64,000 nt of DNA from Mitosporidium daphniae (taxonomy: Eukaryota; Microsporidia). Shown one piece after another: positions 737-58,146 of the stretch. The position numbers and the translations under genes were made by a program. The stretch is taken from NCBI RefSeq assembly GCF_000760515.2, contig NW_013546511.1:40520-104519 (forward strand), written 5' to 3'. The notes under the pieces were generated by a model, which did no database searches, was not told the origin of the DNA, and saw nothing but the letters and a program-made list of their open reading frames with translations. Position 1 is the first letter of the stretch; each line of letters starts with the position of its first letter.

Positions 737-2037
737 ATGATCCTAGAGGATCCCGCTCTTCTCCTTGACGATCGGCTATCCCAACTTGTCATTGACCAGT
801 CATTTCCGATTCCCATTTCAAGTCGAAAATTTCTTGAAAACGCAAGCGTTGCTGCAAGAAGACGGACCAGGCAGTATGTGTTCTCGCAATACTCAAAAAA
901 GATGTCCATTTTGCCCGTGAAAGAGATTATCCGAGAGATTTCTTCATCTTCTTCTTGTTCCTCCGATGGATTGTCAAAATATGTTCGCTCCATCTCACAG
1001 ATGCTTCAGCGGGACATTGACCTAGCCTCCCCAATCATTCAAAGGTACGAGTTTGTTGTTTCTTCTATTTATAGACATACTGAGAGGTATCTCTCGATTT
1101 TTATGGGCTCCTCTATGGTTGAGTTGGACATTACCAGCAGATATAGACAAAAAGTTATCTGGAAAAGCCACAATTCTCACAAAGGAGAAGAAAATCAACA
1201 AATCAACAGCAATATCCAGCCTCCGGAACATGAAAAGCTTTCTTGTGCAATCAAAAAAACTAAAGCCTGTCATGATGACCCGGAAAACTTTACGGAGCTG
1301 TGTGTAAATGCACTATGTACGTTCTCCACAGGAGAAATGATCAACAATATAACGGGATTTCTACATGAAGTTTCTATTGATGACTTGGCCCAACTTGAGG
1401 CTTGCAATAGCAATTTTTCGGTGTTAGAAACCATATCCAATAGGGAAAGGTTTCATGTCCTTCTTGGACCTGCCAGGTTCATCAATCATGACTGCAATCC
1501 CAATGTAAAGGTACGCGGCAAGCACACCAGTCTTTTTGATTAGTTTGTAAAAAAAGGACATGAAATTTCAGTACAGGCCATTCGTCCCATAAAGCTAGGA
1601 GAAGAGATTTTGGTCTCTTACGGGATATCCTATTTTGAGACAAACAATTCTGGCTGTCTTTGCAGAACATGTGAAAGGTACCTTGAGACACAATTTTTTT
1701 TAGAAATGGAAAATTTCAGTTTGCCACAAATAACTGTGTTGCCAAGGAAAATGGGCATATTTATAAGGAGAATCTAGAGTACCTTCTTCGGCCCCGGCGT
1801 CTTAGAGCAGACATATTCAGCGACCCGATTCCGGTTCAACAATCGGGCCATTCGACCGATGCAATAGGCTGTCCCTGGAGATCCGCCTCCTTTCCAAGCA
1901 CAAAGTCAAAATCGAAGCTGTGCGAAACATGCAAAATTCGATTCTCCGACTATGGCAGGTATTTAATTTGCGAGCGTTGTAATCGGCATTGGCAGACCTA
2001 TGGGTGCTATTGGCCGCTAAAATTTTCTAAAAATTAA
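737..2037 (+). CDS. SET-domain histone methyltransferase, Set9/SUV4-20 type (H4K20)
   Basis: The protein probably methylates histone H4 on lysine 20. The SET core is visible as GPARFINHDCNPNVKF, then AIRPIKLGEEILVSYG, then a CLCRTC post-SET cysteine group. The C-terminus has a CxxC...CxxC pair with RHWQTYGCYWP, which resembles the Set9/SUV4-20 tail. The reading frame is restored by two introns, 1511-1543 (33 nt) and 1678-1703 (26 nt). A third, 1045-1074 (30 nt, no stop, multiple of three), is likely because removing it joins IIQ directly to RHTERYLSIF, the conserved RHLRRY block. Spliced length is 403 aa. The first 120 residues are poorly conserved. The gene ends 25 bp before the transketolase start. 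Confidence 0.85.
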
Positions 2038-2062
2038 ATATCATGAAACCCCAATTCACGTC

Positions 2063-4183
2063 ATGACTCCGGCAACTTTGGTTAATTGCGAATTTGATAT
2101 TGCACTTTTCCATTTTCAAGTGATGAAGTCTTCTACCGCTGCACTGTCATCAAACTGCGCCCCCTCGCTGCTTAGTGCGGATGGGTCTTTGGATTCCCTC
2201 TGCATCGCAACCATCCGCTCGCTCGCAATTGACATGGTTGAGGCTGCCTCCAGCGGACATCCAGGCGCCCCGATTGGGCTGGCCCCCTTGGCCCACGTGC
2301 TTTTTTCTCAGCATTTCAGGAGCGTTGGAACGGACCATTTGTGGATGGGAAGAGATCGATTTGTTCTATCAAACGGCCATGCATGTGCTCTGCAATATGC
2401 AATGCTTTTTCTGCTTGGGTTTCCATTGTCGCTCGATGATTTAAAGTCATTTCGGCAGTTGAACTCAAAAACACCTGGCCATCCAGAATGCCATTTTACA
2501 CCAGGCGTTGAGGTGACAACTGGTCCCTTGGGCCAAGGTCTTGCCAATGCAGTTGGGTTGGCCGTTGCGGAGGCCCATTTGGCCGCTACCTTTAACAAGC
2601 CCGGCTTTACAATATTCAATAATTCGACCTTTTGTATTGTCGGAGATGGCTGCATGCAGGAGGGAGTTTCTGCGGAGGCCTTTTCTCTTGCCGGGCACTT
2701 GAACCTATCGCGCCTTATTGTGATCTACGATGACAATGGAATCCAAATTGACGGTTCTACTGACCTGGCCTTTTCGGAGGATGTTGACTCCAGAATGAAG
2801 TCATACGGATTTAAAGTTTTTGTTGTCGAAAATGGAAACACCGATTTGGTTGCAATATCAAACGCAATTTCTGCTGCTAAAGCAAATACCTGCTCCCCGT
2901 CCTTCATTAGGATAAAGACCATGATTGGCGTAGGGTCGGCTCATCAAGGGACCGAAAAGGTCCATGGATCGCCATTGGGAGCGTCCGATGCTGCTGCCTG
3001 CAAAAAGCTATATTTTGGCAAAAGCCATCCCGCTTGGTATGTTCCTGGAGAGGTCAAGTCCTTTTATGCGGAGGTTCTAGAGCGAAATAATAAGCTTAAA
3101 GAGGAATGGACAAATTCTTTTGAGGCATATTGCATCAATTACCCATTGCTGGCTTTAGAGCTGGAAAATCGCCTTTCTGGAAAGCTTTCACTGAAGATAT
3201 CTGATTTCCCGTCTTACAAATCGACGGATCCCTCGATGGCCACAAGAAAGCTATCTGAAACTTTACTAAGCTCCATTGCAGATAAGCTTTCCTCCTTGGT
3301 TGGTGGATCTGCCGATCTTACTGCCTCCAATCTAACGCGCTGGAAGTCTGCAGTTGATTTTTCTCAGTTCCATCCAGAAGGCCGCTACATTAGATTTGGT
3401 GTGCGCGAGCATGCGATGGCTGCCGTTTGCAATGGGTTGGCCGCTTATGGTCATAAAAAGGAAACGAATGGCTCGCTATTGATTCCCTTTGCAGCGACAT
3501 TTTTGAATTTCATCACCTATGCTTGGGGGGCTGTCCGTCTTTCTGCGCTTTCGCATCATCAAGTGTTATACATTATGACACACGATTCCATCGGACTTGG
3601 AGAAGATGGCCCCACGCATCAGCCGATTGAAGCGCTTGCCGCTCTTAGGGCATTGCCAAACATGTTGACTTTCCGCCCAGCCGATGGAAATGAGGTCTCC
3701 GGCGCCTACTTTGCCGCGCTCTCCTACAATTCCGGCCCCTCTGTGTTGTGCCTTTCTCGACAAAATCTGCCCCAACTGGAGGGATCTTCGATCGAAAAGG
3801 TGTCTCTTGGCGCTTATTCTGTTTGGGAATCGTCTTCGCCTTCGAGCTCGGCTCCGCGTGTGATTTTGGTGGGAACTGGCTCTGAGGTTTCTGTTCTTGT
3901 TGACGCGGCCAAAGCGATGCAAGATAAATGCCGTCTTAGCGTGATTTCAATGCCCTGCATGGAATTGTTCGAACTTCAGCCTGCTTCGTACAAAAAGTCG
4001 ATTTTCCCCGAGGGAATTCCGGTAATCTCGATGGAGGCATCCTGCACTTTTGGATGGTCCAAATATGCAACCATTTCAATTGGAATTGATACCTTTGGCG
4101 CATCAGGGCCGGCCCCCAAACTATTTTCACACTTTGGCCTTACTGCAGATGCCGTAATTAAGGCCATTCAGTCGGTCATTTAA
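2063..4183 (+). CDS. TKL1: Transketolase
   Basis: This is the thiamine-diphosphate enzyme of the non-oxidative pentose phosphate pathway, moving two-carbon units between sugar phosphates in the cytosol. The thiamine-binding motif GDGCMQEG...DDNGIQIDG is near residues 190-235. The N-terminal domain has SGHPGAP and LSNGHACALQY, and the pyrimidine domain has GVREHAMAAV and THDSIGLGEDGPTHQP. It is uninterrupted and full length at 706 aa from the ATG at 2063. The in-frame ATG at 2123 gives 686 aa and lies closer to the conserved start, so it may be the true start. It converges on enolase with 75 bp between stops. No introns are seen, unlike most neighbours. Confidence 0.95.
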   Translation: MTPATLVNCEFDIALFHFQVMKSSTAALSSNCAPSLLSADGSLDSLCIATIRSLAIDMVEAASSGHPGAPIGLAPLAHVLFSQHFRSVGTDHLWMGRDRFVLSNGHACALQYAMLFLLGFPLSLDDLKSFRQLNSKTPGHPECHFTPGVEVTTGPLGQGLANAVGLAVAEAHLAATFNKPGFTIFNNSTFCIVGDGCMQEGVSAEAFSLAGHLNLSRLIVIYDDNGIQIDGSTDLAFSEDVDSRMKSYGFKVFVVENGNTDLVAISNAISAAKANTCSPSFIRIKTMIGVGSAHQGTEKVHGSPLGASDAAACKKLYFGKSHPAWYVPGEVKSFYAEVLERNNKLKEEWTNSFEAYCINYPLLALELENRLSGKLSLKISDFPSYKSTDPSMATRKLSETLLSSIADKLSSLVGGSADLTASNLTRWKSAVDFSQFHPEGRYIRFGVREHAMAAVCNGLAAYGHKKETNGSLLIPFAATFLNFITYAWGAVRLSALSHHQVLYIMTHDSIGLGEDGPTHQPIEALAALRALPNMLTFRPADGNEVSGAYFAALSYNSGPSVLCLSRQNLPQLEGSSIEKVSLGAYSVWESSSPSSSAPRVILVGTGSEVSVLVDAAKAMQDKCRLSVISMPCMELFELQPASYKKSIFPEGIPVISMEASCTFGWSKYATISIGIDTFGASGPAPKLFSHFGLTADAVIKAIQSVI

Positions 4184-5789: not shown

Positions 5790-6663
5790 ATGACACTGAT
5801 CCAGGAAATCATTAATCGTAGATTATTCGATGAAGACCAAAAATATCGCAGCTCTGTTCTGAAAAACGAATGGATTTCCCGCCAATCTCGAAACATTCTC
5901 GCCTCGCTATTGATAGTATCTTCTTTGCTGCAATTGATGCTAAGTGTAGTGCTTGTGCTTCAAAATGCCGTTTTTTCACTGTTCATTTTCATTTGCCTAC
6001 TTATTCCCAGCCTTCAGGCGGTCATTGTGCTGACTTCGCACAGGTCGTCCTCGGTTCTGATTTCAGCGCCGATTTTGAAAATCTCCTTGATGGCACATAT
6101 TCTTGTTGGGATCGTTTATTCTTTATTTATGATTGCTAACATTGAAGGTCTGATCCCTATGGTTCATAGACCTTGGCTGACTGGTACCGACGCAGCAAAC
6201 TTACTGATACAAAAGTACGTTGCTTTCCCAATCTTATCAGATACCTCTGCTTCTCTATGGATGCCACATGAAAAGCTGAACTTGTTGCAAAGCATTTCGC
6301 TGGATGCGTATCTTTGGGTTAGAGTATCCTTTTTACAGGTGTTGTTTGCGGCTCTGATCGTAATCTCGGTAAGGTTCGTTTCTAATGTGTTAGTTTTTCA
6401 TATCAATTGTGGCCTTAGTTTCCCTTTCATACAGAAAAGGCAGCTATTTGGTTTCGTTGAAAGCGTCGGCGACCAATCGCGTGTCAAAGACATCTGTTTC
6501 GCAAAAACCTGCCAATGGCAATTATCGGGGTAAGTCAGTATCCCCACCAGCCGAATCAGCAGCATTCTCGCCTGCCAGAATTTATAGCCCCGAACCCAAA
6601 AAAATAGCCCCGTATTTTAACAACCAAACGAATCCAAATGTCTATGTGGAGGTGTCCTTGTAA
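5790..6663 (+). CDS. Multi-pass membrane protein of unknown function
   Basis: I do not recognise the family. The protein (282 aa after splicing) starts with a charged helix, then has hydrophobic segments near residues 36-60, 62-83, 98-120 and 180-210, followed by a basic Ser/Pro/Asn-rich tail of about 75 residues. A 25-nt intron, 6369-6393 (GTAAGG...GTTAG), is required. Removing it continues the last membrane segment as IVIS-FFISIVALVSLSYRKG and restores the frame. The layout (short N-terminal helix, four or five membrane spans, exposed basic tail) would fit an ER or nuclear-envelope protein, but that is a guess. Confidence 0.6.
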
Positions 6664-7012: not shown

Positions 7013-7839
7013 ATGGCTGACTTTATGCCAAACATCATCAAGCCATTGTCTACAACGGCAGGCAGAACGGTGTTTGTTAACTCGCTAAAAAAGGCACTCA
7101 CATCTTTACCTCTGCACGAAATTGAGCTCATTTCGCAAGTTAACACAACCCCCATAGATGTATTGCCACGTGCCTCTGTACTGGCACCATTATACATTTC
7201 TCCTGAAAATGAAAAGGTAGGCCAAAAATGCAGCTAATTGGCTAGTGGATGCTGCTGACCGTACGCACTGAATTTCTTTCTCACCATCCGGGAGAAGTAT
7301 GCTTTCCCGGCGGAAAAAGAGAATTTCAGGACGTTTCCGATATAGACACATCGCTACGAGAAGCATCGGAAGAACTGGGTGTCAACATCGAGGAGCATGT
7401 TGATGAAATCATTGGGGTTTTGCCACCAACACTTGCAAAACATGAACTACTAGTGGTGCCTGTATTGGCATTAATGAAGGGATATCCTCCTCCTTTCTTT
7501 GCGGTCAGCAATTCAGAAGTCGCAAAAACATTCATCGTCCCCTTGGATAAGTTTCTTCAATCCAAATTCCATTCAACATTCGAGGGTATTATTAAAAGCA
7601 AATGGAGCCCACGACCGCACCAACAACATCCCTTTAGGGTTCATACATTTAACATTGAGGACACATGTGGAGAATCGGTGCCCATAATATGGGGAATGAC
7701 TGCTCAAATCCTAATTCAAATATCGCAGCTTTTGTATCCAGACCGCAAGTCTGAATTTCAATTTGAGCCTCCGGAGGGACCCTCGTATTCAGAATTGGCC
7801 CAAGCATATTTTAAATTTAAAATAAATTCAGCCAAGTAA
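7013..7839 (+). CDS. Nudix hydrolase, coenzyme A diphosphatase type (Pcd1/NUDT7-like)
   Basis: The family cleaves CoA and acyl-CoA to phosphopantetheine derivatives and 3',5'-ADP, typically in peroxisomes or mitochondria. The CoA-Nudix signature spans LLTVRTEFLSHHPGEVCFPGG and is followed by the Nudix box G(KREFQD)...SLREASEELGV. A 29-nt intron, 7217-7245, joins RASVLAPLYISPENEK to WMLLTVRTE. Both halves are needed for the fold. The ATG at 7013 gives 265 aa. The C-terminus is SAK, which is not a canonical peroxisomal tripeptide, so location is open. The stop is only 10 bp before the next gene's ATG. Confidence 0.85.
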
Positions 7840-7849
7840 TTTTTCAAAA

Positions 7850-8368
7850 ATGTCCAAATATAAAAATACGCTTCAAGGAATCACTAATACTGCATCGGTG
7901 GCAGTCAAAGTAGGCATATTTTCTATTCTCCTTCGGGAATATTTGTTTGACGTTGCAATTGTAAGAAGCGTGTGTTTTATAATGTACTAGCCTTCTGGCC
8001 CGTCCATGTTTCCCACGCTCAACACAAGTGGCGATGCAATTTTGATCCAAAAAAAAAGGGCTCGCTGCAGCAGGCCATTTGAGCTAAATGATGTGATAAC
8101 AGCGATCAGTCCAATTGAGCCCAAGAAAATAATTTGCAAAAGGATCTCGGCAAAGGTAAATTCAATTTAATGAGTCTAGGAAGGCGAATTGGCCGTTACC
8201 ATTGGCCACGAGCACATGATTATTCCAAAAGGACATGTGTGGCTTCTTGGAGACAATCCAGAAGAGTCGATAGACTCCAGACACTATGGCCCGGTTCCGA
8301 TTGGGCTGATCCAAGGGAAGGCCATTTGTAAGATTTTGCCACTTTCAAATATATTTGCAGCGTTGTAA
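7850..8368 (+). CDS. Mitochondrial inner membrane protease subunit, Imp1/Imp2 type (S26 signal peptidase)
   Basis: This protease removes sorting peptides from proteins reaching the mitochondrial intermembrane space. No single open frame shows it; it appears only after removing introns 7961-7990 (30 nt) and 8156-8179 (24 nt), giving 154 aa. The catalytic serine is in PSGPSMFPTLNTSGD, the catalytic lysine in CKRISAKEG, and the C-terminal box reads VWLLGDNPEESIDSRHYGPVP. An N-terminal hydrophobic stretch (about residues 20-37) would be the membrane anchor. Length is a little under the family norm of 160-190 aa. Subunit 1 versus 2 cannot be decided from sequence alone. All exon lengths are multiples of three. 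Confidence 0.85.
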
Positions 8369-8679: not shown

Positions 8680-9965
8680 ATGCTTTGTACTTCAAGAATA
8701 GGACCGTTTCCTATGAATCAAATGACATTTGGCGGAACTAACAATGCTTTTACATATGTTGAACCATATTTAAGCCACAGTGCTATTTCTTTGGCATCTG
8801 CTGCTGCTAGACCACACAACTATTGTGCATTTCCTGGAAATACGGGTCCTTACCTCGCCTCGTCATTTGGACAAACCACAATTACTGCTCTTGTTCAACC
8901 TTCGGTTTCACTTAACCTGTATGTCTCCATACTGACAGAGGTTATCTTGATCAAGACATCGAACACGCTCAATGGATCCCTCCCGACGGATTCTTGGCCC
9001 CGTTCTCCTTTGCCTCTTTTAAGAGACTTTGTCCTGCAGCTGATCCTGATCTCTCAAAGCCTTCCCATTACACTTCTTATCGTGTTGGTCCTGCTGGACC
9101 GGCTCAGAATGTCGCTTCCATACTATGCGGTGGGAACAAACGAGACAGGCCATCGAGTCTTTCTTGCTGCGCTTATTGTGGCAAACAAGTTCCTGCTGGA
9201 TATACCGGTAAAAAATAGCGTCTGGTCGCAGTGGACCAACAATTACTACTCGATCGTTGATATCAATTTTATGGAGCGCCAATTTCTAAATCTATTGCAC
9301 CATGATATCGAGGTATCGCTCAACGAAGTTCAGCAGCAGTTATGTCTTGTCCAAAGACTCCATTATCATCCGCACCAGCAAAATCGATTCAACGACCACA
9401 AGCGGAATATTACGCCAAAACATTCTCATCATACGATGTCATATCCTCAATTTGCACCACCCCTTTGTCCGTGTAGTGCATACACGGGCGAAAAAAAACG
9501 AGTCCATTGTAACCTGTGTAGTGGTGGGTCCTCTGCGCCATCAACAACAGTTGCATCGGCGTTTATTCCGATCCACCCGCTACCTTTTCAATTGAAAAGA
9601 CAAAAGGGTCAATTTGAGGATAATTTTTATTCACTTCATAATATTCCATCTCCATGTCCATCTCTTGAAAGATCTCCAATCCACTTTGTATATCCACAAT
9701 CAGCATACCGGTCATCTTCATTATCATCTAATTGGATTGCGTCCCAACCAGCGTCCTTTTCCCAGTCGATCTCTTTTGTTTAAACGACATCGGCACCAAA
9801 GAAGTTTAATAAACTAACTATTCTTGCACAGGTTTGGAATTAATTTATAAGCAGCTGATGCAGGCCAAATGGGATTCGGCTGACAATTCGCGGTCCTCGT
9901 TGAGGGAAGCCACCAGAATGGGCATGGTACATGATGGCGAGCTTAAAATGGGAACCTATGTGTAA
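8680..9965 (+). CDS. Pho85-type cyclin (Pcl family)
   Basis: The cyclin box, residues about 110-215, reads LRDFVLQLILISQSL, then DRLRMSLP, GTNETGHRVFLAALIVANKFL and NFMERQFLNLLHHDIEVS. This is the Pcl1/2/9 subtype that activates Pho85 kinases. A homologue of that kinase lies at 19008. The main frame runs to a TAA at 9781. Two more short introns, 9778-9801 (24 nt) and 9832-9854 (23 nt), would add a 46-residue charged tail ending KMGTYV and give 412 aa; this tail is less certain. The N-terminal 100 residues and the Ser/His-rich linker after the box are low complexity. The ATG at 8713 is an alternative start. With the extended model the gene overlaps the next convergent gene by 10 bp. Confidence 0.75.
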
Positions 9966-22084: not shown

Positions 22085-22545
22085 CTACGAGGAGGGAGGA
22101 ACTCTTTTGGGGTTGACTCTTGATTCCGCCTCAAAACGCTCATAGGCCCTGACAAATTTTGATTGAAGGTAGAACGATCCATTCCAGTCATCCTTTCTGG
22201 CATTTGATTTGAAGTACTTTTCAAATTTCTACATGGTGACCACTTGACAAGCAATACCTCTTTGGCCTGGTCTAGTGTAGAGCCTGGAAGGGGAAGGTTT
22301 AAGATTTTTCCGGCCTCATCCATGGAAAGAGTTGACGAAACTTGGGCAACTGCCGGCGAATTGGAGGATCCCAATTTGCTTGCATTTGATTCCGCGGCTA
22401 AAAACAAGTACCGAAAAGGCATACCTTTGATGGTCTGTATATAGGCATCTTTAACAGACTTTCCCAACACCTGCCCCACCACTGCTATGACTTTGATAAG
22501 AAGACGCCCAATCTATGTAGGAAAGGATATCTAACATACTGCCAT
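22085..22545 (-). CDS. PAM16: Mitochondrial import motor subunit Pam16/Tim16
   Basis: Pam16 is a J-like protein that pairs with Pam18 at the TIM23 channel to regulate mitochondrial Hsp70. The spliced 125 aa contain GRLLIKVIAVVGQVLGKSV, the SMDEAGKILNL block and the C-terminal NGSFYLQSKFVRAYERFEAE, all diagnostic. Three introns are removed: 22513-22539, 22398-22424 and 22229-22257 (27, 27, 29 nt). The first coding exon is only six bases (Met-Ala). The family lacks the HPD motif of true J proteins, and it is absent here too (DDW region). Confidence 0.9.
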
Positions 22546-22599
22546 GGGATGGGTTGGATGAAAATTAAAATATGGTCCACTGGCGGGTCGTTTATTTGG

Positions 22600-22622: not shown

Positions 22623-22643
22623 AGTTGCCGATTGATGATGCGT

Positions 22644-43800: not shown

Positions 43801-44227
43801 CGAGTTTATGGCCATACTCGGGTCGCCGTTTTACTTTTTGATAGCGTTGATTTTGGTGGGCATTCTCGTTGTGTATGGATACCTGCCTGCATTTGGGTCT
43901 CTCATCCCGACCGCTACTTCAATTTCAAACATCTTGATTTCCAGGGCATTAGAATATATACAGCAATTTGCCGCCCAAGAGCGCCGCCCAGAAGCCGGCC
44001 ATTCTCAGCGAAGAAGCACATTTTCGCCCTCGTCGTCAGGCTCGTCATTGAGAACACAGGCTTCCCACTTTGACACTCATAAGCCATCTTTTGGCGGCAA
44101 TCGCAGCTCCCCTCCAAGCTTTTCGCCAGATCTGGCAGCCAATGCTGATTTCCACGACGATCAAGACGATGATGAATACGCTAGTAATGAGCGGACCTCT
44201 CTGCTTTCCACAATTTCGAAAAAATAA
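40878..44227 (+). CDS. SEY1: Sey1/RHD3 dynamin-like GTPase, ER fusion
   Basis: Sey1 fuses ER tubules, the role of atlastin in animals. After a Ser-rich N-terminus of about 160 residues come [17 protein letters not shown], the P-loop GAQSSGKS joined by a 25-nt intron to [20 protein letters not shown], then [32 protein letters not shown] and [15 protein letters not shown] helical middle follows, then two membrane spans near residues 865-905. Ten introns: 41369-41398, 41512-41536, 41612-41636, 41723-41749, 41908-41942, 42382-42412, 42683-42712, 42804-42836, 43401-43431, 43611-43636 (25-35 nt). The spliced frame is 1018 aa; the usual size is 780-870, the excess being the N-terminus and an acidic Ser-rich tail. 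Confidence 0.9.
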
Positions 44228-44274: not shown

Positions 44275-46644
44275 TTATGTGGCAAGTCTATGGATAAGGG
44301 GATAGAGATCGTTGGCTATGGGTGCTGGCGCAGCACTTAGGAACATCGAAAAGCTATAAAGTAAAATCACGCGCACATTACTTTTCCATGAAAAGATGCG
44401 GCAGTTCTTTGTCTGGTTCCGAGGAAAGAAACGGTCTTACTTGAACAAATGTATCGATAATCTAATTGGTAGGGCAAATGTCCGCATTCAATACCTTGTC
44501 GGTAAGGTTCGGATATAGCGAGAAAATGGAACACGAAGCGGAATCTTTTGGGAACGAAAACACATTTACCAAAAGGCGACAGATGAGGCGCGCATTGGTG
44601 GACCTAAAATGCTCATCTGCCGCCATCAGATTTGTTTGCAAAAATTCAAAAAGAGATGCCGACGAGTTGGGCTTGAATATGATTTTCTTGAAGACATCTC
44701 CGTTGAAGGGCGCATTTCGAATGATGTCTAACACTACAGGCAAAAAGATAAACGATCAGGAAATTACATGGGAAAATCTCGTTGGCAGGAAGTCGCTCTA
44801 GGAGATCCCAAAAAACCTGGGCAAAGTTTAAAGGTTCGCCCCCCAAAAAGGCTGGCTCCAGTAAATACTCCAGAACGGCCCTTTCATCATCCTAAAATAA
44901 GCGATGCCGCGTACATTTATCAATGCAAGAAGCTTCTTGAAAATGCCACTCTTATTGATCGCAGTAATCTTGTGATACTTTTGCCGGTCCTGTGGTACGG
45001 ACACTGGAGGGTTTTGTGGTCGACACTCAAGTGGGTTTGCCGATGTGTTTTTCAAGATAAAATCGACCACTTGGGCGTGATACGCTTCTGGAAGGTCATT
45101 TTCAGCAAGGAATTTCGATGCTACCTGGTGGGGGTTGTCTAAAGGTATCAACAGAATGGCGACAAACCGTCTCGGTTCATTTGTAATTTCAATGGAGGAG
45201 CGTCTTCATGCACATCAACCGAAAACTCGTAATCATACTGCGATGTGTTTGTGGATGGCGGAGAAGAAGAAGCCGTGCTGGTAACTTCTCCAATTAAATG
45301 CCACTGCGCATTTTTCCACTAAGTTGTGATTAGAAAAAAGGATGAACCTCGTAAGCAAAAGAAACGGCCTCCTTGTGTCCGCAATTTGGATTGTTTTTGG
45401 CGACGCAGATTTGCCCCTCTTTGGTTCCTAATTTTAGCTGGCGGCAAAAATCAAACCTCTCCGTAGCATAAGATCGGAATATTCATAAATTGTCATGGCC
45501 TCGTGATCGAAGCCCTTGGGCGCGTGCAACTCGATCTTGTTGCCAATAGAAGACAAAAAGACAAGGTCCCCAGATGAACAGCCGAGAATAAGAAGAGGTA
45601 CGTCCGCGTATGAAGAGCAGTTTGCAACAGACCAAATGGAAACGGTATTTGGCAGGTGCAAATTTTGGATCAGCTCAACATCTTGTGGAAATGGGATCGA
45701 TTTCCATACCTTGCCATTGCAAAACGGTGCCATTTTCTCCCACGGCAACGGTACAATTGACGCCGTTTTGAATTTGACATACGCTATATAAAAAATCTGC
45801 CGCTGCCGAAAGGATTCTGATGCAACTTCCGGTGTCAGACCATAGGCGAACCGTGCTACGGTAAAATGGCTGTGAAATACCCGTCGTTGGAGCTTGAAGC
45901 AAACCCAACTGCCATTGGCAGGGCACATAATGCTCGTACTGCGTCTGTGTGTCCCGTCATCGTTTTGATACATTTTTCGTTTTTCCACATCTTAATGGAC
46001 TTGTCTGCCGACGCGGTGAGGAAATTTCCGTTTGGAAGAATAAGAACGGCCCACACGGCTGCCTGATGCCCCGAAAGCGTATGCTTTGGCATTTTGAATT
46101 GATCCCACACGATGGCTGTTCTAATTGTGAATCCAAATCGCAGCAAAATACTTGTCCCACGAGCCGGAAATAAGGGTGTCTCCATCCAGAAAAAGGGAAG
46201 AAACGTTATCTGAATGGCCTAAAAGCAAGCGGTACGGTTCTGAATCTGCAGACTGCGTTGGATCGAATGCAAAGATGACTTTATCGGAGCCGCCGCTGAA
46301 AATCATTCCTATTGTAAGGAAAGGCCCCGTCCACTACCATTTGGAAATTCGCAATTTGGCGTCTTAAAGACAAGAGAATTTACAAAGTTGGAATGAAATG
46401 AAAATGACCTTGTCTCGCTGGTCTCATAATTGGAGCCTTTTCTGCGAATGGAAAACACTTTGACATGTTTATCGCGCGAGCAGGTGATGATGCTGAATTT
46501 GATGTCGGCATCGTTGTTGGCATCATCGACAGGTCCAAAATATGGCGCCGAAATGACAGCCTTTACCTACAAATATAGGGGCTGCATTACGTCACTAGAA
46601 TGTGCGGCGATGACGCTGTGAACCGGGTTCAATTTACACGACAT
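44275..46644 (-). CDS. DOA1: Doa1/Ufd3/PLAA, ubiquitin- and Cdc48-binding WD protein
   Basis: Doa1 binds ubiquitin through its PFU domain and Cdc48 through its PUL domain, acting in ubiquitin recycling and mitochondrial quality control. The propeller includes CSRDKHVKVF, ISGSWDKTAIVWD, TASADKSIKMWKNEKC and SSNDGTVRLWSDTG. PFU has GTKEGQICVA and YDYEFSVDVH...DNPHQVASKFLAENDLP. PUL ends with NARLICRLLVNVF and NVRVILLYSFSMF. Twelve introns (23-34 nt) are removed: 46567-46590, 46309-46337, 46121-46151, 45856-45880, 45682-45709, 45428-45456, 45319-45347, 45139-45167, 44892-44914, 44734-44767, 44461-44493, 44413-44440. One exon (44441-44460) is 20 nt. The product is 675 aa, in frame throughout. Confidence 0.9.
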
Positions 46645-46817: not shown

Positions 46818-48619
46818 CTAAATAGACAGATTTTTCAACTGGTTTAGCTCGGTCAACAATTCAACCTCTTTAGAAATCTTATCAAGCTAATGGGTCAAGG
46901 CATATATAAAACCTGATTGAGCTCCAGAGGTTCTCCAGAAGCCTGCTTGGTTTTTAACAGGCTGATTTGCTTTAGCTTTAGCGTGATATTTTTAATCAGC
47001 TTTTCCTGGGGTGATATTTTGTCCGGCTTTTGAGCTAATGCTGGAAAATCTGAAGGCTTCGGTTGCTCGGCTGCAGCTTTGCGCAACGAGGGCGGCACAT
47101 ATGCAACTTTTTTTTCTACCGTCACAAAGACAAAAATACCGATGCTTGCGTTCATGACCTTGTTCAAGACATTGGAGTTTACTTGAAAATTGGCAAAAGT
47201 TCCCTTCGGAAATCGCCTCCACATGGCCTACAACCTTATCAACGACTGGCTACCTGTAAAAGCTCGCTAAATTCGACGTGCGAAACAAGGCCTCCTGTGA
47301 AGTCGTAAATCTTGATGCCGTTGTCTACTCGCAATCTTGGAGAAAGTGTTGCAAGCAGCAAAAAGCGACCGTCTGGCGACCATTCAAGCGTGGTGGTCCC
47401 TGGCGCTTTAAAGCACGAAATTTTTTTAAGCTTTACACGGTCCCAGATCTCCACAGATCCAGAAAGGTTTCCAAAGCCAGACATGCAGATCAGATTTCCA
47501 AAGGGGTTAAACTTTACAAAGTTTCTTGGAGAAGATCCAAAATCAAAAACGGGACGGCAATTGGAATCAAATATCTTTGCACGAGCAGGCATGTCTACAT
47601 TAACGCGCGTGCAGGACTTACTTCCATAAACGACAATAAATTCATTGGAAACGGGACTCCACTCCACAGCATGAATAGGCCCCTCCGAATCTGAATATTA
47701 ATGCAGCGGGTGTACCTAATCTTAATTGGCAGTCAAGAGATCCATCCGCCGAGATAAAAACAATCGACTCGTGTCCATAGTAGGACTTTCCATTTTTATC
47801 TTCGTCCGAATGAATAAACGCAATCAAGTGGGAGCCCGTATGATTCCAAAGCAAATCTACTCTGTCCGCTTTGTAGAAGCTTTTTGTTGCCCTTGGGAGT
47901 GTAGAAAGCCCGCCTGGAAACGAAAATATTCTAATGTTAGAGGGAGACCCATTGTCGCCCTCAAAGTAAATTGCAATCTTCTGAGCGGTTTCGGATGGGG
48001 AAAGACAAAACGAGACCATGTTGCGATCCTTGAACGAAAAACATGGCGTATATGGGGCACAAGAATTGGTGATGATCAGTTCACCCGGAGAATTGGAAAA
48101 TCGGACGAAAAAGGATTCGTCAAGTGTCCATTGGACTAGCCAATTGTTGGTGTTTCGATTCAGAAACGAGTAGATGACCTTTTTCTGATCCAATGACCAA
48201 ACAAAGCAATTATCCGTTCTGTAAAGCTCGTGGCTGATTGGCACCTTTGTATAAATGCAAAGAAACTTGGATCGGGGAGAAAAATGCAGATGTTGGATGG
48301 ATCTACCCTCTGAGACGTCCTCAATAGGGACGGTAGTGTTGTCCTCGAACGAATATAGAAAAAGCCTACAAAATAGGTTCAAAATAAAATATACCCCTTA
48401 GAGTTGGGCGCATAGGCCAAATAGGTTCCGCAGCTGCTAGCACAGTTTGCCTTTAGACCTTCATCAAGCGACAGCTGGGTGGAATTGTTGCAAAGATCGG
48501 GCGATGAAAAGGTCCCCGTGGAAAGGCTGACCACTTTGGAAGTGCTTGCGGTTCTGTCTAGAAAGATTACAAAAGGGACGGCAAATACAAAAAACAGGCA
48601 ATATAGAAATGCTGGACAT
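46818..48619 (-). CDS. Eukaryotic initiation factor 2A (eIF2A)
   Basis: eIF2A is a WD-type factor that can deliver initiator tRNA on special mRNAs. Diagnostic parts are GPIHAVEWSPVSNEFIVVYG, PVFDFGSSPRNFVKFNPFGN, GFGNLSGSVEIWD, TTLEWSPDGRFLLLATLSPR plus LRVDNGIKIYDF, and a C-terminal helix after AYVPPSLRK. Seven introns are removed: 48558-48588, 48366-48394, 47691-47715, 47595-47621, 47228-47253, 47116-47139 and 46887-46912 (24-31 nt), giving 537 aa. The 24-nt intron at 47116 has no stop and is a multiple of three. The first exon is short (MSSISILPVF) and less certain. The C-terminal LELNQLDKISKEVELL is typical. Confidence 0.87.
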
Positions 48620-48794: not shown

Positions 48795-49283
48795 ATGAAA
48801 ATCCAGTTTACGTATTTTCTTTCTCTCCTCTTTTTACTGATTTCTCTTGCATTTTCTTTGGATGATGGTGAGTTTGAGACCGCAGATTTTGATGAATCTG
48901 ATGTTGCAGATGTAGAGCAGTTCCCGGGGCCATTTCCTGGTCCATTTCCCGGGCCATTTCCTGGTCCGCGGCCCTTCCCTCCGCGATGTATTTTTTGCCC
49001 ATTCAGACCGTGCTTTTGCCCTTTTGGATATGAGTGTCGATACAGTCCTCGCACGTGCTTCAGCTGCTCATTTCCGTATTGCGTAAGATCATTTCCAAGG
49101 CCATTCCCAGGACCATTCCCAAGGCCATTCCCAGGGCCATTCCCAGGGCCATTCCCAGGGCCATTCCCAGGACCATTCCAAAGACCATCATCTCCAGGAC
49201 CCTCACCTCCAGGACCTTTTCGCCAACCTGTAGAACAAGGCCCAGGCAACAGACCTGCTTCGGGCCAAGGGCTACCTAAATAG
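48795..49283 (+). CDS. Secreted Pro-Phe-repeat, Cys-rich protein
   Basis: I recognise no family. The 162-aa product has a strong signal peptide (MKIQFTYFLSLLFLLISLAFS), a short acidic region and FPGP repeats. A core with eight cysteines in 32 residues follows (CIFCPFRPCFCPFGYEC then CFSCSFPYC). After it come about nine more PFPGP/PFPRP units and a Gly/Pro/Gln tail. The DNA encoding the second repeat block is a 12-bp tandem (CCATTCCCAGGG) at about 49096-49185. Composition suggests an extracellular matrix or spore-wall protein. An opposite-strand GPGN-repeat frame is the shadow of these repeats. Confidence 0.7.
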   Translation: MKIQFTYFLSLLFLLISLAFSLDDGEFETADFDESDVADVEQFPGPFPGPFPGPFPGPRPFPPRCIFCPFRPCFCPFGYECRYSPRTCFSCSFPYCVRSFPRPFPGPFPRPFPGPFPGPFPGPFPGPFQRPSSPGPSPPGPFRQPVEQGPGNRPASGQGLPK

Positions 49284-49457: not shown

Positions 49458-51196
49458 ATGGATTTCAATCTCGATTCGGTTCTTGCATTTGTATCCTATT
49501 TGTGGAATGTAATTGTAAACATTCCAGGGATGGATTATATAATTACTTATATCAAGAACTCGTATCAGAATGATCCTATACGCATTATCCTGGAGGGTTT
49601 TCTCATTCTGTACACCGTCAAGTATTTAAAAAGCAAGAGACGCAACAAAGCCGATGAGGAGCTTTCAGAGCGTGTAAGCTGTAGCTTTTAAATTCAAGGA
49701 CATCGATGAAATCATCGAGGAATGGATTCCATCTCCTCTGGTGCCTTGTGAGTTGCCACCTTTGGCAAAGTTTAACCTGGACACGATAAACCCCATTACC
49801 AGGTATTGCTTTTTCGTAAATTTCTAGCGAAACCGGGATGCTTGTCAACACGAAAAAAGCAGCTGGAGATGCTTTCAACTTGGTATCCTTTAATCCGCTG
49901 GGGATCCTGAATCAACCGGACCTCAAAGTAACGTCGTTTAGCAACATCTTATCATAAGGAAATGTCTGCAATGGCAATCAAAAAATATGGTGTCGGCACA
50001 TGCGGTCCTCCTGGGTTTTATGGAACCTTGGACATTCATCTTGAGCTGGAGGCAATAATTTCAAAGTTTCTCCGAACACAGGCATCGATTCTTTATTCGC
50101 AAAACTTTTCCGCCGTCAGCTCTGTGATCCCTGCTTTTTCCAAAAGAGGAGATATTATTGTTTGGTATCCCTGCCTGTTGATAACCATTAGCGATGACGG
50201 CGTTAATTTTGCTCTGCAGAAGGGCGTCCAAATAAGCAGAAGCGATATCTTCTATTTCATCCACAATGACTTGGCGGACTTGGACAGGGTTCTGTCCGAA
50301 ATTGACCAGATGTACAAGGGCAAGCTTCTTACGCGCCGCTTTATTGTCACAGAGGGCATTTTTGCTAAATATGGTGACATTTGCCCGCTTCCGCAAATCG
50401 TACGGCCAGGCATTTTGATTTCGTTTAGATTTCTTTGAAAAAAAAGTACAAGTATCGTCTGATTTTAGACGAATCCCTGTCGATCGGCTCCATTGGCGCA
50501 AGAGGTGCTGGGCTTACTGATTTCTATTCAGATCAGGTCTCCGTCAAGGACGTTGACATGATCATTGGATCGCTTGGCCATGCTTTTGGAGCAACGGGGG
50601 GATTTTGCGCCGGATCGACCACTGTTATTGACCATCAACGGCTCGGAGGACAAGCATATTGCTTCTCTGCTTCGCTTCCTGCACTTCTCACAGTATTTGC
50701 GCTTTCGGCTATCAAAAGCATGCCGGGAATGGAGAGTTCTAGTGCGTTGGCTAATGTTGCGGATGGAATCCAACATTCCCTCGAGATGCTTCCCAAAAAT
50801 ATTTCTCTTTTCAAAAAGTCGCTTTTATCGCGGTTGCCCTCCTCATTTGAAGTGCGATCCAACGATAGCTCGTTGGCCTCGTGTTTGATCCACATTCAAA
50901 TGGCTTCAAACCCCGAGAAGCACCCGGATAGAGATATCTTTTTCGAGGAAAAGATCCTCCAAAAGGTCGTTGACTTGGCTTTGGAACAAAACATTTACGT
51001 GACGCGTTCTAAAGACGTGCGTACAGAGGACATAAAAAATCTTCCCCCAAGCATTAAGCTTTGCATTTCCGGCGCCTTTTCCGAGTCTCAAATGGCAAAG
51101 CTTATAGATGGCCTTGTCGAGGCATTTACGAAAGTCGACAAAGAATTCAAGGATAAAAATTCTAAATTTTATTTGCAAGCTTCGAGTGTATCCTAA
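49458..51196 (+). CDS. LCB1: Serine palmitoyltransferase subunit Lcb1
   Basis: Lcb1 is the non-catalytic partner of Lcb2 in the first step of sphingolipid synthesis at the ER. It starts with a membrane helix, then IEEWIPSPLVP, YGVGTCGPPGFYGTLDIHLELE, DIIVCDDGVNFALQKGVQ, YKYRLILDESLSIGSIGARG and IGSLGHAFGATGGFCAGS. The PLP-binding lysine is absent, as expected of Lcb1. Introns 49674-49698, 49803-49827, 49928-49958, 50165-50191 and 50400-50428 (25, 25, 31, 27, 29 nt) are removed, giving 533 aa. The 27-nt one has no stop and is a multiple of three. Its 3' end overlaps a convergent small gene by 35 bp. Confidence 0.93.
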
Positions 51197-53758: not shown

Positions 53759-55293
53759 ATGGATTACGCATTTGAAGCGGAGGAGCTGGAAACCACTGAA
53801 GTGACATCTTGTTACTTGGAGGGGACTTTGGCTTTGGAAACCAAGGTTTCATCCTTTACTCAGCAGCATCGAGTTTCAACTCGAAATTTGGAAAAAAATA
53901 CGGGAGGCAGCATTGTCTTTGATAACGATCTCGAGGGGCATGTGAATAGGATAACATTTAAGCAGTCATGCATGTTATACCGCTTTTGGGAAATGATTTT
54001 TTCATTTTCTGAAAGGCTAGAAAAATCGACTTGCACCGAAGAAGTAGTGGATCTTTTCAGAAAATATGTCAAGGTTCCAGGTACGGGCGCATATTTTTAC
54101 TTTAGAAATTCGATTAGACATCAAAAGAAAGAGCCGGCTGGGAAATCTATTTTCGCTGCCAAAATTTGAAAATCTGTCTTTGGAGCCTGATGGACAAACA
54201 TTGCACGTCACAGAATCAGAACCCTCAATGGGAATTGAGGGTATTGAAAAGGGCACACAGAAAAGCAACCAAAAATCTGCGCTTAATGAACTGTGGCTTG
54301 GGATGTTAGGAAATTTTTCACATCCCGACATTAACCTTCTTCGATTTTTGCGTGCAAGAAAATGGTCGCTTGACGAGGCTTTCAAAATGTTTGTAGAGTG
54401 CTTATATTGGCGATGGTCCAAAGACGTTCTCTCTTTAATGAGGCTAGGTGAGTCTTCAATTCCGCTGCATTTGATGAAGAGTGGAAAAACCTTTTTCCAC
54501 GGCACAGACAAGTCAGGCCATTCACTCATGTATTGCTTTGCATTTTAATTCTAGCTTTGTCCTTTCAAAAATGCACGACAGGCGGTCCCAATCAGAAGAG
54601 GAGAGTGAAAACTTTACAATCTACCACATGGAACTGGGAAGAAGAATGCTCGGAGAAGGAATGGAAAAGACAACTATTGTCTTTGACTTGAAAGATGCCG
54701 GTTATAATTCGCTGGACATTTCTTCTATTAGGCATATGATTACGTGTTTTCAAAGCAACTATCCAGAGAGCTTATATCGCTGTTATGTTTTGAATGCCCC
54801 GTGGCTGTTTTGGGCCCTTTGGAAGCTGGTTTCGCCGCTATTGGATCCCGTAGTTGCTGCCAAAATCACCTTTGTCAAAAGGGTTGAAGATTTGCTCAAT
54901 TATGTCGATGAGGCGAACATACCATCTGCTGTTTTGTCAAAAGCAAGGCCGTTGGACAATGGATTAGTAGTGGTGACGCCCATATTCTGTAAGTCTATTG
55001 AAAAAACAGACATTGATGAAAACCATTGGAATGAGGCGCTTTTAGCGTCTCTCGATGTTCTTAAGAAGAAAACTTTAAATATAGCTTCAATCCTTAAAGA
55101 CTGTTCCGAAGAGGATTTTGAAGACAAAGTGGGGGGACTGATATCTCAAAGAAAGATCACCCAGGAAGAGTATAAAAAGTACGCTTCAGGCTCTTTATTG
55201 GCTTCATATGCAGAGAACGTATACGAACGGCACGGTATTCTCGATCACAGCGATCCCACATATTTAAATTGGAACAGAAGACTGTATAGGTAG
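53759..55293 (+). CDS. Sec14-like CRAL-TRIO lipid-transfer protein (Csr1-like)
   Basis: The protein should move phosphatidylinositol or related lipids between membranes. The CRAL-TRIO N-terminal helix is HPDINLLRFLRARKWSLDEAFKM. The lipid-binding domain shows TTIVFDLKDAGYNSLDISSI, CFQSNYPESLYRCYVLNAPW and a gate region LFWALWKLVSPLLDPVVAAK. Introns 54081-54105 and 54530-54554 (25 nt each) are removed; the second turns KSGHSL into KSGHSLIFVLSKMHD, the strand seen in Csr1/Sfh2 proteins. The spliced length is 494 aa. The first 130 residues are not similar to anything I recognise. The ATG at 53759 is the first in frame. Confidence 0.82.
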
Positions 55294-55393: not shown

Positions 55394-56705
55394 ATGGACG
55401 AGTTTTTGGCCTTTGACAAGGAAGACAGGGAGCAGCAGCAACGGCATGAACATATGCCTAAAGAAGATAGGATCAAGAAGCGAGAATTTTCATCTAAATC
55501 AAGCCAAAGTGCCATAAAAAGAAAGAGGGAAGGAATTCGTCAAGTTCCTGCAAGCTCGCTTTTGTCGACTACTAGTCCTTGGATGGAGTATGCGGCGCAT
55601 TCCTTCCTCTCGCCAAATCATACCATTTCAGAAAAAAGGCTGGCATACTGGAAGCACTATGCATCATTGCATCCGATTGTGCAGCTCCATGAAGAGATAA
55701 TTGCATTTGAACAGTACATTTCACCAACACCATCTGAGATGAAGGCTAGGTCTGACCTACTCCAGCGGATAGACAATGTGGTGCAAGAATTATGGCCAGG
55801 CTCAAAGGTCCCTTTGGGCGTGTTTTAATTATTAGGTCTCTTCTTTCGGCTCGTTTTACACGCAGCTCTATTTGCCCACTTCAGACGTTGATCTTGTGGT
55901 AATAGGAAATAGCGGAAAATCGGGTCTGAGGCGGCTGGCTTCTGAACTCGTCAAACAGGGCCTGGCAGAACAGCACTCGATCAAGGTCATCTCCAGAGCA
56001 AGGGTAAGTGCGCTTTTTTAACGCTAGATCCCAATTATAAAATTCACCGAAAAAAAGTCCAAAATTGTGGTGGACATCAGTTTTAATCAAGAGTCCGGAG
56101 TTGAAGGCTCTGAGAAGCTACGTCGTTTGGTCGGGAAATGGCCCGGAATTCTCCCGTTGCTTTTGGTTCTCAAGCAGTTTCTGCTCAATCGCGGTCTGAA
56201 CGAGGTGTATTCTGGCGGGTTGAGCTCGTACGGCCTAATCCTACTTTGCGTGTCTTTTTTCCAGATGCATCCGATGATCCAGGCTCGGCTAATCCGGCCA
56301 GAAGAAAATTTGGGCGTGCTGCTGATCGAATTTTTTGAGCTGTTTGGCAAGTGCCTGTCGTATGACCGCGTTGGCGTTTCCGTGTTGGGACGAGGCTCCT
56401 ATTTCGAAAAGGGCGAAAGATTTCCTATATCAAACCACCACAGCGGGCATTTGCTTGCAGTGGAGGATCCCTACGATACTTCGAACGACGTCACCAAAGC
56501 TTCCTTTTCGATTTCGGTGGTCAGGCAGGCATTCGGATACGCGTTTGAAATTCTTACGGCGCTGGTGGGCGAGCGATTGCGGATGCTTCTCGATCCGGAT
56601 CCAGAACGCGTGGCCAGTTTGAAAGGACTGGCCGCACTGCCACCGTCACTGCTGTCTTCGATAGTAGTTGTCCCCGAAGATGTCCGTAATCGTAGGCTCC
56701 AGTAA
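55394..56705 (+). CDS. TRF4: Non-canonical poly(A) polymerase, Trf4/5 (PAPD5) type
   Basis: Trf4 adds short A tails to nuclear RNAs for exosome decay within TRAMP. The basic N-terminus is followed by LHEEIIAFEQYISPTPSEMK, then across a 28-nt intron FGSFYTQLYLPTSDVDLVV with two catalytic Asp residues, and KIVVDISFN with the third. The central domain has FLLNRGLNEVYSGGLSSYGL and the nucleotide-recognition HPMIQ...NLGVLLIEFFELFG plus LAVEDPYDTSNDV. Introns are 55808-55835 (28 nt) and 56004-56027 (24 nt). Spliced length is 419 aa. After the TAA at 56703 the same frame stays open for about 29 more charged codons. Confidence 0.92.
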
Positions 56706-56917
56706 GCAAATCGCGATAAGCGCAACATTGAGGCAAACCACCTCAGGCACATCGGGGAAGCGGAGCGTATTGCTCCGAAGCCGTCCCAATAAATTACCGT
56801 GTTTTTATTTTGCCGATACTACGTTATCGACGTGGAGCGCCGATTTTTGGATTTATTGTGCCGCAGCTTTGATGGAGGCAGTCACCTTTGCAAAGACAAT
56901 TTTTTCCCTACACGGAG

Positions 56918-57886
56918 TTAATAGTTTGCATCATACCAGTCGATTTTTGACTTGAAGATGGGAAGCGAGCGGCGCAGGTGTCGCAAGTTTTCCGCAAGAG
57001 TCTCGATTTCGCTCTTTATTTCAATTGCCAGAGGAACAATGGCCGTGGGAAGGTTTGAAACGAGGACGGGTTCAATTCGCATCTGCTTGAAAAAGTGTGC
57101 ACTGCAGTCATCGGTGGAATAAAAGCAGAACGACACCATGCCTGAGACAATCTTTTGCGTGCTTTTTTCGACAATCGCTTCCTGTAGCCAGCGCCCATTT
57201 CGTCTACAGGAAACAAGGGCAAAGAAACCTTTCACTCGTCGCCGAGGCAATAAGGCGCAACGAATCCTCAGTAGGGCCCTTAACTGCTGTCATGATGCTA
57301 AAGTTAGGGCGCAGATTCTTCAAGAAAAGCTCTCTGAAAGATCGAGCGCTTTCAATGGTATCTACGTCGAGCGTCTTTTCGTCTTCGGGCATCAGAGAAA
57401 TATTTGTGGCCTCCTAACGGGGAGAAATAAACCAAATACCAATGATTTGGGGTCAATATCGAAAGAAAGCGATGCATTCAGATTTTCGGCGTGGTAAATA
57501 AACGTGGCAGGCGTTCCCTTCATTCGTAGCTCGTCGCAGAGCAATAGCGACTAGGAGGTGATACATGATTATGATGATGATCATACGATTTCGACGCTCG
57601 AGGCATCGGGGCGTGCAATCGTGCCTGCAGTGGGCGAGGACTGACCATCGCCTTCACTATCCATCTCACCATCGCCTATCACTACACTGAAGCGGATAGG
57701 AAATCTAATCGAGACAAGATACTGGACGACCAATGAAAAGTCCTCCTCGCGGACGAGTGGCTTAATGACGGCGAGGAAGCGTCGTGGCTCTACCACAGCT
57801 AGCAGCGGATTGAGTGTCCGTAGCAGCGCCCAGCAACTCTTGCCATGAAGGTCAGGGGAGGAGGCCACGTTGGCTTGATTGCACAT
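56918..57886 (-). CDS. Conserved-looking protein of unknown function
   Basis: Four exons joined by introns 57551-57586 (36 nt), 57414-57439 (26) and 57204-57228 (25) give 293 aa with no stop. The protein appears globular: an N-terminal helical region (SCWALLRTLNPLLAVVEPRR), an acidic linker with Asp/Ser, alternating strands and helices (LLLCDELRMKGTPATFIYHA) and a C-terminal helix LEN-type segment (EIETLAENLRHLRRSL). I could not place it. PCNA-like clamp, HORMA and kinetochore RWD folds were considered but no signature motif was found. It is convergent with TRF4. Confidence 0.5.
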
Positions 57887-57918
57887 TGATGGAAATTAAA
57901 ATTAAATTTTATTCTAAT

Positions 57919-58146
57919 TCAGCGCCATCCGACTGGATGTTTATTGAAGACTGGCCAGTCAGGTACTACAATCAAGATGGCCACCAAGATGCCAAATAAA
58001 AAGCCATAAGTCGTTATCGGCATATTCTGAGCGTAGAATCCAACCCCGAAGCTTGCCAAGCCAAAGAAGACAAGAATTAGCCTCATCATGTATTCACTGC
58101 GATTTTGCCCATGGAAATCCTACATGTAAGTGCGCCATCGTACCAT
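57919..58146 (-). CDS. SPC1: Signal peptidase complex subunit 1 (SPC12/SPCS1)
   Basis: SPCS1 is a small ER membrane subunit that restricts signal peptidase to true signal peptides. The 67-aa product reads DFHGQNRSEYMMRLILVFFG at the start, has two membrane spans and ends VVPDWPVFNKHPVGW, matching the family end PPWP-x-Y-x-x-x-P-L-x-W. The first coding exon is a lone ATG at 58144-58146, separated by a 24-nt intron (58120-58143). Without the intron the DFHGQN start has no Met. The stop is 33 bp upstream of the start of the unknown gene on the same strand. Confidence 0.83.

Follow-up and report, generated by a model that had tools for sequence, protein, structure and literature searches.

Evidence for ultra-short spliceosomal introns throughout the sampled genome of the basal microsporidian Mitosporidium daphniae

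Mitosporidium daphniae is a parasite of water fleas that stands at the base of the microsporidia. We analyzed a stretch of 64,000 nucleotides (nt) of its genome (assembly GCF_000760515.2, contig NW_013546511.1, positions 40,520 to 104,519 of the forward strand; hereafter the window), in which genes are interrupted by very short segments with GT-AG borders. These segments are almost certainly ordinary U2-type GT-AG spliceosomal introns, miniaturised to a near-fixed length of 23-31 nt (median 28 nt) and numbering about two per gene; judged from the sequence, they are real throughout the sampled part of the genome. Microsporidia are a textbook case of intron loss; the many introns of a basal member, short with few exceptions, tell shrinkage apart from loss. 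A gene finder with a higher minimum intron length would produce wrong gene models in this genome and in those of its relatives.

A preliminary description of the window had joined open reading frames across about 100 introns, all but three of them of 23-45 nt. Genes were called de novo with a finder that combines a phased fourth-order coding model, splice-site matrices and weighted strand choice, and that is seeded on long open frames, independently of the earlier list of introns; a first version without trained splice sites was dropped because long false introns fused genes. It was trained in six rounds on the window and on the initial 10 kb of each of 20 other contigs (C1-C20), 264 kb in all, with a flat prior for intron lengths from 10 to 300 nt; a second pass over the same 264 kb used the learned length prior, which itself disfavours shorter introns. 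This second pass yielded 148 gene models and 358 introns, 331 of at most 45 nt, with a median of 28 nt and a minimum of 23 nt. Ninety-nine of the calls are in the window, in 24 of its 31 gene models; 91 are no longer than 45 nt and 78 measure 23-31 nt (median 28, minimum 23). Homologues or NCBI proteins settle four of the eight longer calls: the RPB1 introns of 123 and 100 nt are real, a 56-nt call in UAP56/Sub2 becomes 98 nt, and a 49-nt call in SEY1 becomes 31 nt. The other four (164, 179, 82 and 59 nt) are regarded as doubtful or as gene-boundary artefacts, which fits the earlier count of all but three introns at 23-45 nt. On the 20 other contigs, 240 of 259 called introns do not exceed 45 nt, which upholds genome-wide use as far as sampled.

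The density is 1.75 introns per kb of coding sequence and 2.2 per gene model, which with the median of 28 nt falls within our working limit for intron-dense, ultra-short lineages (median of at most 30 nt, at least one intron per kb coding). Extrapolated to the genome assembly of 4.66 Mb in 147 contigs this gives some 5,800 introns, an estimate that is probably too low because the finder misses stop-free introns of length 3n. Three such introns of 27 nt (41723-41749, 47595-47621 and 50165-50191) were missed; homology or the NCBI model reveals them. If read through, each adds nine residues in frame, and they could therefore be retained silently. The short introns are in phases 0, 1 and 2 in 151, 106 and 74 cases. 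A deficit of stop-free members among 3n introns (7 of 29, including the three found by homology, versus 38 of 65 frameshifting ones; Fisher p 0.003) resembles a pattern linked to nonsense-mediated decay in Paramecium, and is not claimed here because the finder is biased against exactly that class.

Could the segments be artefacts, that is, chance frame joins or assembly indels that interrupt ordinary frames which any reader can join? Joining frames by eye is flexible, and the finder misplaced introns in SEY1 and UAP56. One of four 23-nt introns given prominence in the preliminary description (9832-9854) is also unsupported: it lies past an in-frame stop whose last base is 9783, where the sequence looks hardly coding, and the gene also stops at 9783 when no introns above 60 or above 45 nt are allowed; the remaining three (17717-17739, 36400-36422 and 44892-44914) were called. 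The agreement of spliced lengths with whole codons in every model, adduced earlier, follows in part from the way any splicing model is made, and taken alone it is weak evidence. However, an artefact of this kind is highly improbable given the controls. With the flat prior, GT-AG borders gave 270 introns, 163 of them of 20-45 nt with a sharp peak at 25-29 nt, whereas ten decoy dinucleotide pairs under identical training showed no peak of this kind, their counts in that size range being 30, 29, 20, 23, 36, 20, 27, 38, 39 and 35; GT-AG borders at frame interruptions thus exceed chance (163 versus 20-39). Among other lengths the flat prior gave 81 introns of at least 100 nt, mostly gene fusions in our judgement, four below 20 nt (10, 11, 14 and 19) and none of 20-22 nt. 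Single-base indels, moreover, would not produce all length classes, and the short introns number 97 of 3n, 121 of 3n+1 and 113 of 3n+2. At 27 untrained loci (86 kb) the flat prior called 77 introns (45 of 20-45 nt, 23 of at least 100 nt) and the learned prior 101, of which 86 are at most 45 nt, among them single introns of 20 and 22 nt.

Protein comparisons also argue against an artefact, which is already contradicted for PLAA: its spliced product is identical over 675 residues to NCBI MDAP_000733, and 12 of 12 introns agree. For SEY1, eight of nine called introns agree with the NCBI model, the ninth being 31 and not 49 nt, and NCBI removes an extra stop-free intron of 27 nt. Both introns of RPB1 agree with NCBI; past residue 1660 the two models diverge in the heptad repeat (1802 residues here versus 1809). 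The second large exon of this gene matches M. daphniae RNA polymerase II at 99% along the full query, the next match in rank, an ENA protein, reaching 83%. The NCBI proteins for PLAA and SEY1 come from an 875,980-base contig, and hence from another assembly. When homologues were aligned, 10 of the 12 PLAA junctions were covered by at least 15 of them, and at nine of these the majority was ungapped within two residues; the same held for six of nine junctions in SEY1 (one of the others, with 9 of 119, is the misplaced 49-nt call), making 15 of 19 for the two proteins at background ungapped fractions of 0.75 and 0.78. Alignments to PDB structures, with junctions computed and then read by eye, support 14 of 16 junctions (proteasome beta-4, ClpX and LCB1 four of four each, UAP56 two of four), and both tests combined support 29 of 35. 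In UAP56/Sub2, compared with PDB 9t6l, two junctions are ungapped, the 98-nt intron removes a 14-residue insertion at the third, and the fourth is at the protein end. In the LCB1 and eIF2A alignments, nine-residue insertions vanish on removal of 27-nt GT-AG segments. As for the origin of two of the NCBI models, the 2025 annotation is described as using AUGUSTUS trained on BRAKER2/ProtHint protein hints, with funannotate given EuPathDB transcript sets for Rozella and several microsporidia, one of them named MdaphniaeUGP3; that account does not state whether the set of that name is cDNA or predicted (PMC12449221), and the word "intron" is absent from its main text.

The signals in the 331 short introns are few. 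The donors named in the preliminary description are all present (GTATG 35, GTAAG 31, GTTTG 22, GTACG 14), together with GTAAT (22), and the commonest is GTATT (41). Position +3 is A in 76%, positions +4 to +6 carry 0.07-0.14 bit each, exon position -1 is G in 63% and -2 is A in 56%. Acceptors are mostly TAG, as had been described (277 of 331, 84%), and intron GC is 37%; the acceptor is the first AG at least 20 nt from the donor in 314 of the 331 and the first AG at least 15 nt away in 289. For the branch site, words were counted against column shuffles, replacing an expectation-maximisation motif search that converged on the T before AG and was uninformative on the branch. YTNAY occurs in 214 of 327 introns (65%; 164.7 ± 7.6 in shuffles), YTRAY in 108 (67.6 ± 7.1) and CTAAY in 27 (8%; 15.2), so that the TAAT or CTAA word noted earlier amounts to a weak tendency. 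The excess sits where the A is 6-9 nt before the last intron base; the A of YTRAY lies at a median of 17-20 nt from the first base in introns of 23-34 nt, and down to 9-11 nt in some, distances that rest on the 108 of 327 introns with this word. The constrained signals are limited to GTA, TAG and a weak YTNAY word. Selection against GTA...TAG pseudo-introns in coding sequence (ratio 0.46 at 23-31 nt versus 0.50-0.63 at 41 nt or more) was dropped as evidence.

Consistent with splicing, small nuclear RNA genes for U2 (137.2 bits), U6 (90.8), U5 (89.8) and U1 (83.6) are found, all above the gathering score and with functional segments intact (the U1 5' end ACTTACCTG, U2 GTAGTA, U6 ACAGAGA and the U5 loop). 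Of the protein factors, Slu7 (71.9 bits) and Prp18 (173.7 bits, in three near-identical places) are present, a BBP/KHDC4-type KH exon (46.2 bits, in a 43-residue open frame) is a likely SF1, and the U2AF65 model has 35 matches in the genome, none of U2AF65 scale (best 55.2 bits, cut-off 310.3). Of two U2AF65 candidates, L047, the sole place matching the C-terminal part of the model, encodes a CC1-like protein, and L048, whose gene model includes a 200-nt intron that is doubtful, gave a proline-rich protein with one RNA-recognition motif, not clearly a U2AF65. RED_N had no match in the genome at E<=1, nor did any control match it, and LisH_TPL, which we take to be the Smu1 domain, had none at E<=1 in a search without a eukaryotic positive control; absence is established for neither. 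The threefold Prp18 region (L044, L045 and L046, on contigs C56, C80 and C118) means that the 27 untrained loci include at least three near-copies; it is either assembly redundancy or a recent duplication.

The canonical U1, U2, U5 and U6 genes, Slu7 and Prp18, together with the GT-AG borders, the A at +3 and the T before AG, also speak against the idea that the segments are not spliced, being instead cut from DNA, like the internal eliminated sequences of ciliates, or bypassed by the ribosome. Some yeast mitochondria do contain bypassing elements, which the ribosome skips and whose size range overlaps that of the segments described here, and three of the segments are in-frame and stop-free; however, no second nucleus is known in this group, and both routes seem to us very improbable.

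Several points weigh against the segments being ordinary spliceosomal introns. Four of the 15 ungapped majorities are not above the background, the PLAA junction at residue 502 (the 23-nt intron 44892-44914) is ungapped in 9 of 20 homologues, and the SEY1 junctions at residues 583 and 825 in 42 and 25 of 119. Because the nature of MdaphniaeUGP3 is unstated, agreement with the NCBI models is independent of the finder and is not clear RNA proof; excision in RNA is something we infer from the DNA. Since the KH family cut-off also admits one of 14 prokaryote controls, the KH match is a likely and not a proven SF1, and the SF1-HH profile matched neither the genome nor any control, so that absence is not established. 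The branch word is weak (YTNAY in 65% versus 50% expected), and GTA...TAG depletion is seen in the reverse-complement control as well (0.72); this avoidance adds no support, since it is not length-specific and the control is depleted too.

As ordinary spliceosomal introns, the segments would probably be recognised by intron definition, with the fixed length serving as a ruler that replaces strong motifs. U1, and then U6, would recognise little more than GTA, frequently preceded by AG in the exon. The degenerate YTNAY would be read by a branch-binding protein together with U2, its A some 6-9 nt upstream of the acceptor and some 17-20 nt downstream of the donor. The acceptor would be the first AG, in most cases TAG, that lies past a minimum span of roughly 20 nt. 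A donor-to-branch distance of 17-20 nt would leave almost no linker. In human splicing about 50 nt from donor to branch are needed for efficient assembly, some 21 nt separate the two intron helices in the B complex, Smu1/RED relieve short distances, and a distance of 35 nt from 5' splice site to branch blocked assembly on one substrate (PMC6692369); SPF45 is reported to take the place of U2AF on short pyrimidine tracts (PMC8363638).

The introns might be short through passive deletion bias, with an unchanged mode of splicing, in which case the spliceosome of any microsporidian or fungus could handle them. The small nuclear RNA genes are indeed canonical, the intron-poor Encephalitozoon cuniculi already splices introns of 22-76 nt (PMC3629993), and deletion bias down to a functional limit is discussed for the mikrocytids (PMC10245619). 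Yet 17-20 nt would need another geometry or tolerance, given the human spacing of about 21 nt and the block at 35 nt (PMC6692369), and the length floor looks like a limit and not like drift: 16 of 358 introns measure exactly 23 nt and none is shorter under the learned prior, which disfavours shorter ones, while the untrained loci gave the two of 20 and 22 nt and the flat prior 4 of 270 at 10-19 nt and none at 20-22 nt. We hold passive shortening to be possible, if somewhat unlikely. With the missing matches to RED_N and LisH_TPL and the lack of a U2AF65-scale match in mind, we put forward, tentatively and as a rather unlikely case, a B complex of different geometry together with miniaturisation before the mass loss of introns in Microsporidia, E. 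cuniculi retaining the survivors of a shrunken set. For Stentor, with introns of 15 nt (PMC12862383), a published table gives homologues of SMU1, IK (RED), U2AF2 and U2AF1, the IK and MFAP1 rows having the same accession (PMC9505925).

Tiny introns are not unprecedented, and those of M. daphniae belong to a known kind, new and informative for where they occur; what is unusual is their high density and degenerate signals in an otherwise intron-poor clade. Nucleomorphs, which also have introns of this kind, differ in being reduced endosymbiont nuclei. The introns of the Bigelowiella natans nucleomorph, of Stentor and of type B in Trichomonas vaginalis are alike in size class (15-26 nt; PMC2483917, PMC12316389), but T. 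vaginalis has 63 introns in all, its 5' motif is extended, and its branch motif has merged with the 3' one (PMC12316389). Paramecium has a median intron of 24-25 nt, with a minimum of 15 nt in P. bursaria (PMC12862383), and is described as intron-dense, with a 5' signal restricted to GT(A) and no branch signature (PMC2483917); M. daphniae is likewise intron-dense and ultra-short with a 5' signal that is largely GT(A), but belongs to an unrelated lineage and shows weak but significant branch-word enrichment. The mikrocytid Mikrocytos mackini is a reduced intracellular parasite with many tiny introns (224 introns of 16-17 nt, of conserved sequence; PMC10245619), whereas those of M. daphniae are 23-31 nt, far more numerous and degenerate. 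E. cuniculi, from the same lineage as M. daphniae, has GT-AG introns of 22-76 nt (PMC3629993), so that the length as such, earlier called unusual for a fungal-type genome, is less so in a basal microsporidian; the estimated 5,800 introns and the degeneracy of their signals do stand out. Fifteen microsporidia have a mean of 0.01 introns per kb, with 0.22 inferred for the ancestor (PMC8476143), as against about 1.75 in M. daphniae, which that study seems not to have used, since it is not among the papers naming both "Mitosporidium" and "intron". Our literature search, whose scope did not include Haag et al. 2014 and Whelan et al. 2019, found no report of intron lengths in M. daphniae. In microsporidia, introns may first have shrunk to a minimum and been lost afterwards.

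Table 1. Genes of the window with their introns (length in nt in brackets) and the evidence for each.
Gene	Position	Strand	Introns	Evidence
SET-domain	737-2020	+	1045-1074 (30), 1511-1543 (33), 1678-1703 (26), 1959-1995 (37)	Gene finder; Pfam SET at spliced residues 181-275
Unnamed	5790-6663	+	6369-6393 (25)	Gene finder only
NUDIX	7013-7839	+	7217-7245 (29)	Gene finder; Pfam NUDIX
S26 signal peptidase	7850-8368	+	7961-7990 (30), 8156-8179 (24)	Gene finder, low score (0.5); Pfam Peptidase_S26
Claimed 23-nt intron, unsupported	9832-9854	+		Not called; doubtful 164-nt intron 9688-9851 first; gene 8722-9783 ends earlier at limit of <=60 nt
Unnamed, 834 residues	12451-15167	+	12478-12511 (34), 12659-12685 (27), 12794-12820 (27), 13134-13164 (31), 13336-13360 (25), 14247-14276 (30), 14707-14744 (38)	Gene finder; no Pfam match
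WDR55	17238-18715	-	18513-18540 (28), 18326-18351 (26), 18079-18102 (24), 17717-17739 (23)	Gene finder; Pfam WDR55, residues 43-267
Proteasome beta-4/PRE4	20236-21135	-	20894-20933 (40), 20736-20763 (28), 20564-20594 (31), 20329-20352 (24)	4/4 junctions ungapped against PDB 6epc chain, by eye
Long unnamed	22085-26753	-	22398-22424 (27), 22229-22257 (29), doubtful 22485-22663 (179)	Gene finder only
Probably two fused genes (second from ~27799)	27097-31532	+	24-36 nt: 27603-27628, 28136-28163, 28220-28249, 28366-28391, 28669-28695, 29318-29342, 29551-29574, 29639-29664, 29692-29727, 29801-29828, 29834-29868, 30190-30213, 30455-30480, 30759-30786, 31297-31325; doubtful 27762-27843 (82)	Gene finder only; fusion read from the 82-nt intron
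Unnamed	31875-32887	+	32138-32161 (24), doubtful 31985-32043 (59)	Gene finder only
Carboxypeptidase	32928-34307	-	33943-33971 (29), 33676-33700 (25)	Gene finder; against PDB 2boa by eye, 25-nt junction ungapped, 29-nt junction at gap in poorly aligned N-terminal part
UAP56/Sub2 (DDX39B)	34470-35961	-	35196-35223 (28), 35046-35076 (31), 35629-35726 (98; called as 56), doubtful 34481-34510 (30)	PDB 9t6l alignment
Mpo1-like	36146-36710	+	36208-36233 (26), 36400-36422 (23)	Gene finder, low score (0.5); Pfam Mpo1-like, residues 6-153
Mitochondrial ClpX	36800-38391	-	37988-38019 (32), 37666-37690 (25), 37341-37368 (28), 37061-37091 (31)	4/4 ungapped against PDB 9ykx, by eye; first in low-scoring stretch
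Mannose-6-phosphate isomerase	38633-39892	+	38783-38809 (27), 39138-39167 (30)	Gene finder; PDB 5nw7 alignment
SEY1	40878-44227	+	41369-41398 (30), 41512-41536 (25), 41612-41636 (25), 41723-41749 (27, stop-free), 41908-41942 (35), 42382-42412 (31), 42683-42712 (30), 42804-42836 (33), 43402-43432 (31; called as 49), 43611-43636 (26)	NCBI M. daphniae protein (P0241); homologue test
PLAA/Doa1, 12 introns	44275-46644	-	46567-46590 (24), 46309-46337 (29), 46121-46151 (31), 45856-45880 (25), 45682-45709 (28), 45428-45456 (29), 45319-45347 (29), 45139-45167 (29), 44892-44914 (23), 44734-44767 (34), 44462-44494 (33), 44354-44381 (28)	NCBI MDAP_000733; homologue test
eIF2A	46818-48619	-	48558-48588 (31), 48366-48394 (29), 47691-47715 (25), 47595-47621 (27, stop-free, by homology), 47228-47253 (26), 46887-46912 (26)	Gene finder; PDB 3wj9 alignment; Pfam eIF2A
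Serine palmitoyltransferase LCB1	49458-51196	+	49674-49698 (25), 49803-49827 (25), 49928-49958 (31), 50165-50191 (27, stop-free, by homology), 50400-50428 (29)	4 called junctions ungapped within 2 residues against PDB 6m4n, by eye
CRAL/TRIO (Sec14)	53759-55293	+	54081-54105 (25), 54530-54554 (25)	Gene finder; Pfam CRAL_TRIO
Trf4-type poly(A) polymerase	55394-56705	+	55808-55835 (28), 56004-56027 (24)	Both junctions ungapped against PDB 3nyb, by eye
F-actin capping alpha	56853-57664	-	57551-57586 (36), 57414-57439 (26), 57204-57228 (25), 56908-56936 (29)	Gene finder; weak Pfam match (26.8 bits)
RPB1, long exceptions	58278-63936	+	58428-58550 (123), 60414-60513 (100)	Identical to NCBI M. daphniae RPB1 (P0001) for 1660 residues, both junctions inside

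The RPB1 end of the window also differs in composition: at 56000-64000, G+C rises to 51-55% over the end of RPB1, as against 40-47% in other parts, and this gene also has two of the long introns (100 and 123 nt). An RPB1 fragment of 83% identity (P0002), on a 32-kb ENA contig from a close relative of M. daphniae, begins precisely where the exon downstream of the 100-nt intron does. Two further frames carry a signal-peptide-like start. The first, at 48795-49283 on the plus strand, has FPGP/FPRP repeats and clustered cysteines, and we would guess that its product resembles a secreted structural protein of the spore wall or polar tube type; the second, at 39932-40681 on the minus strand, was called intronless and encodes a Ser/Thr-rich, mucin-like protein.

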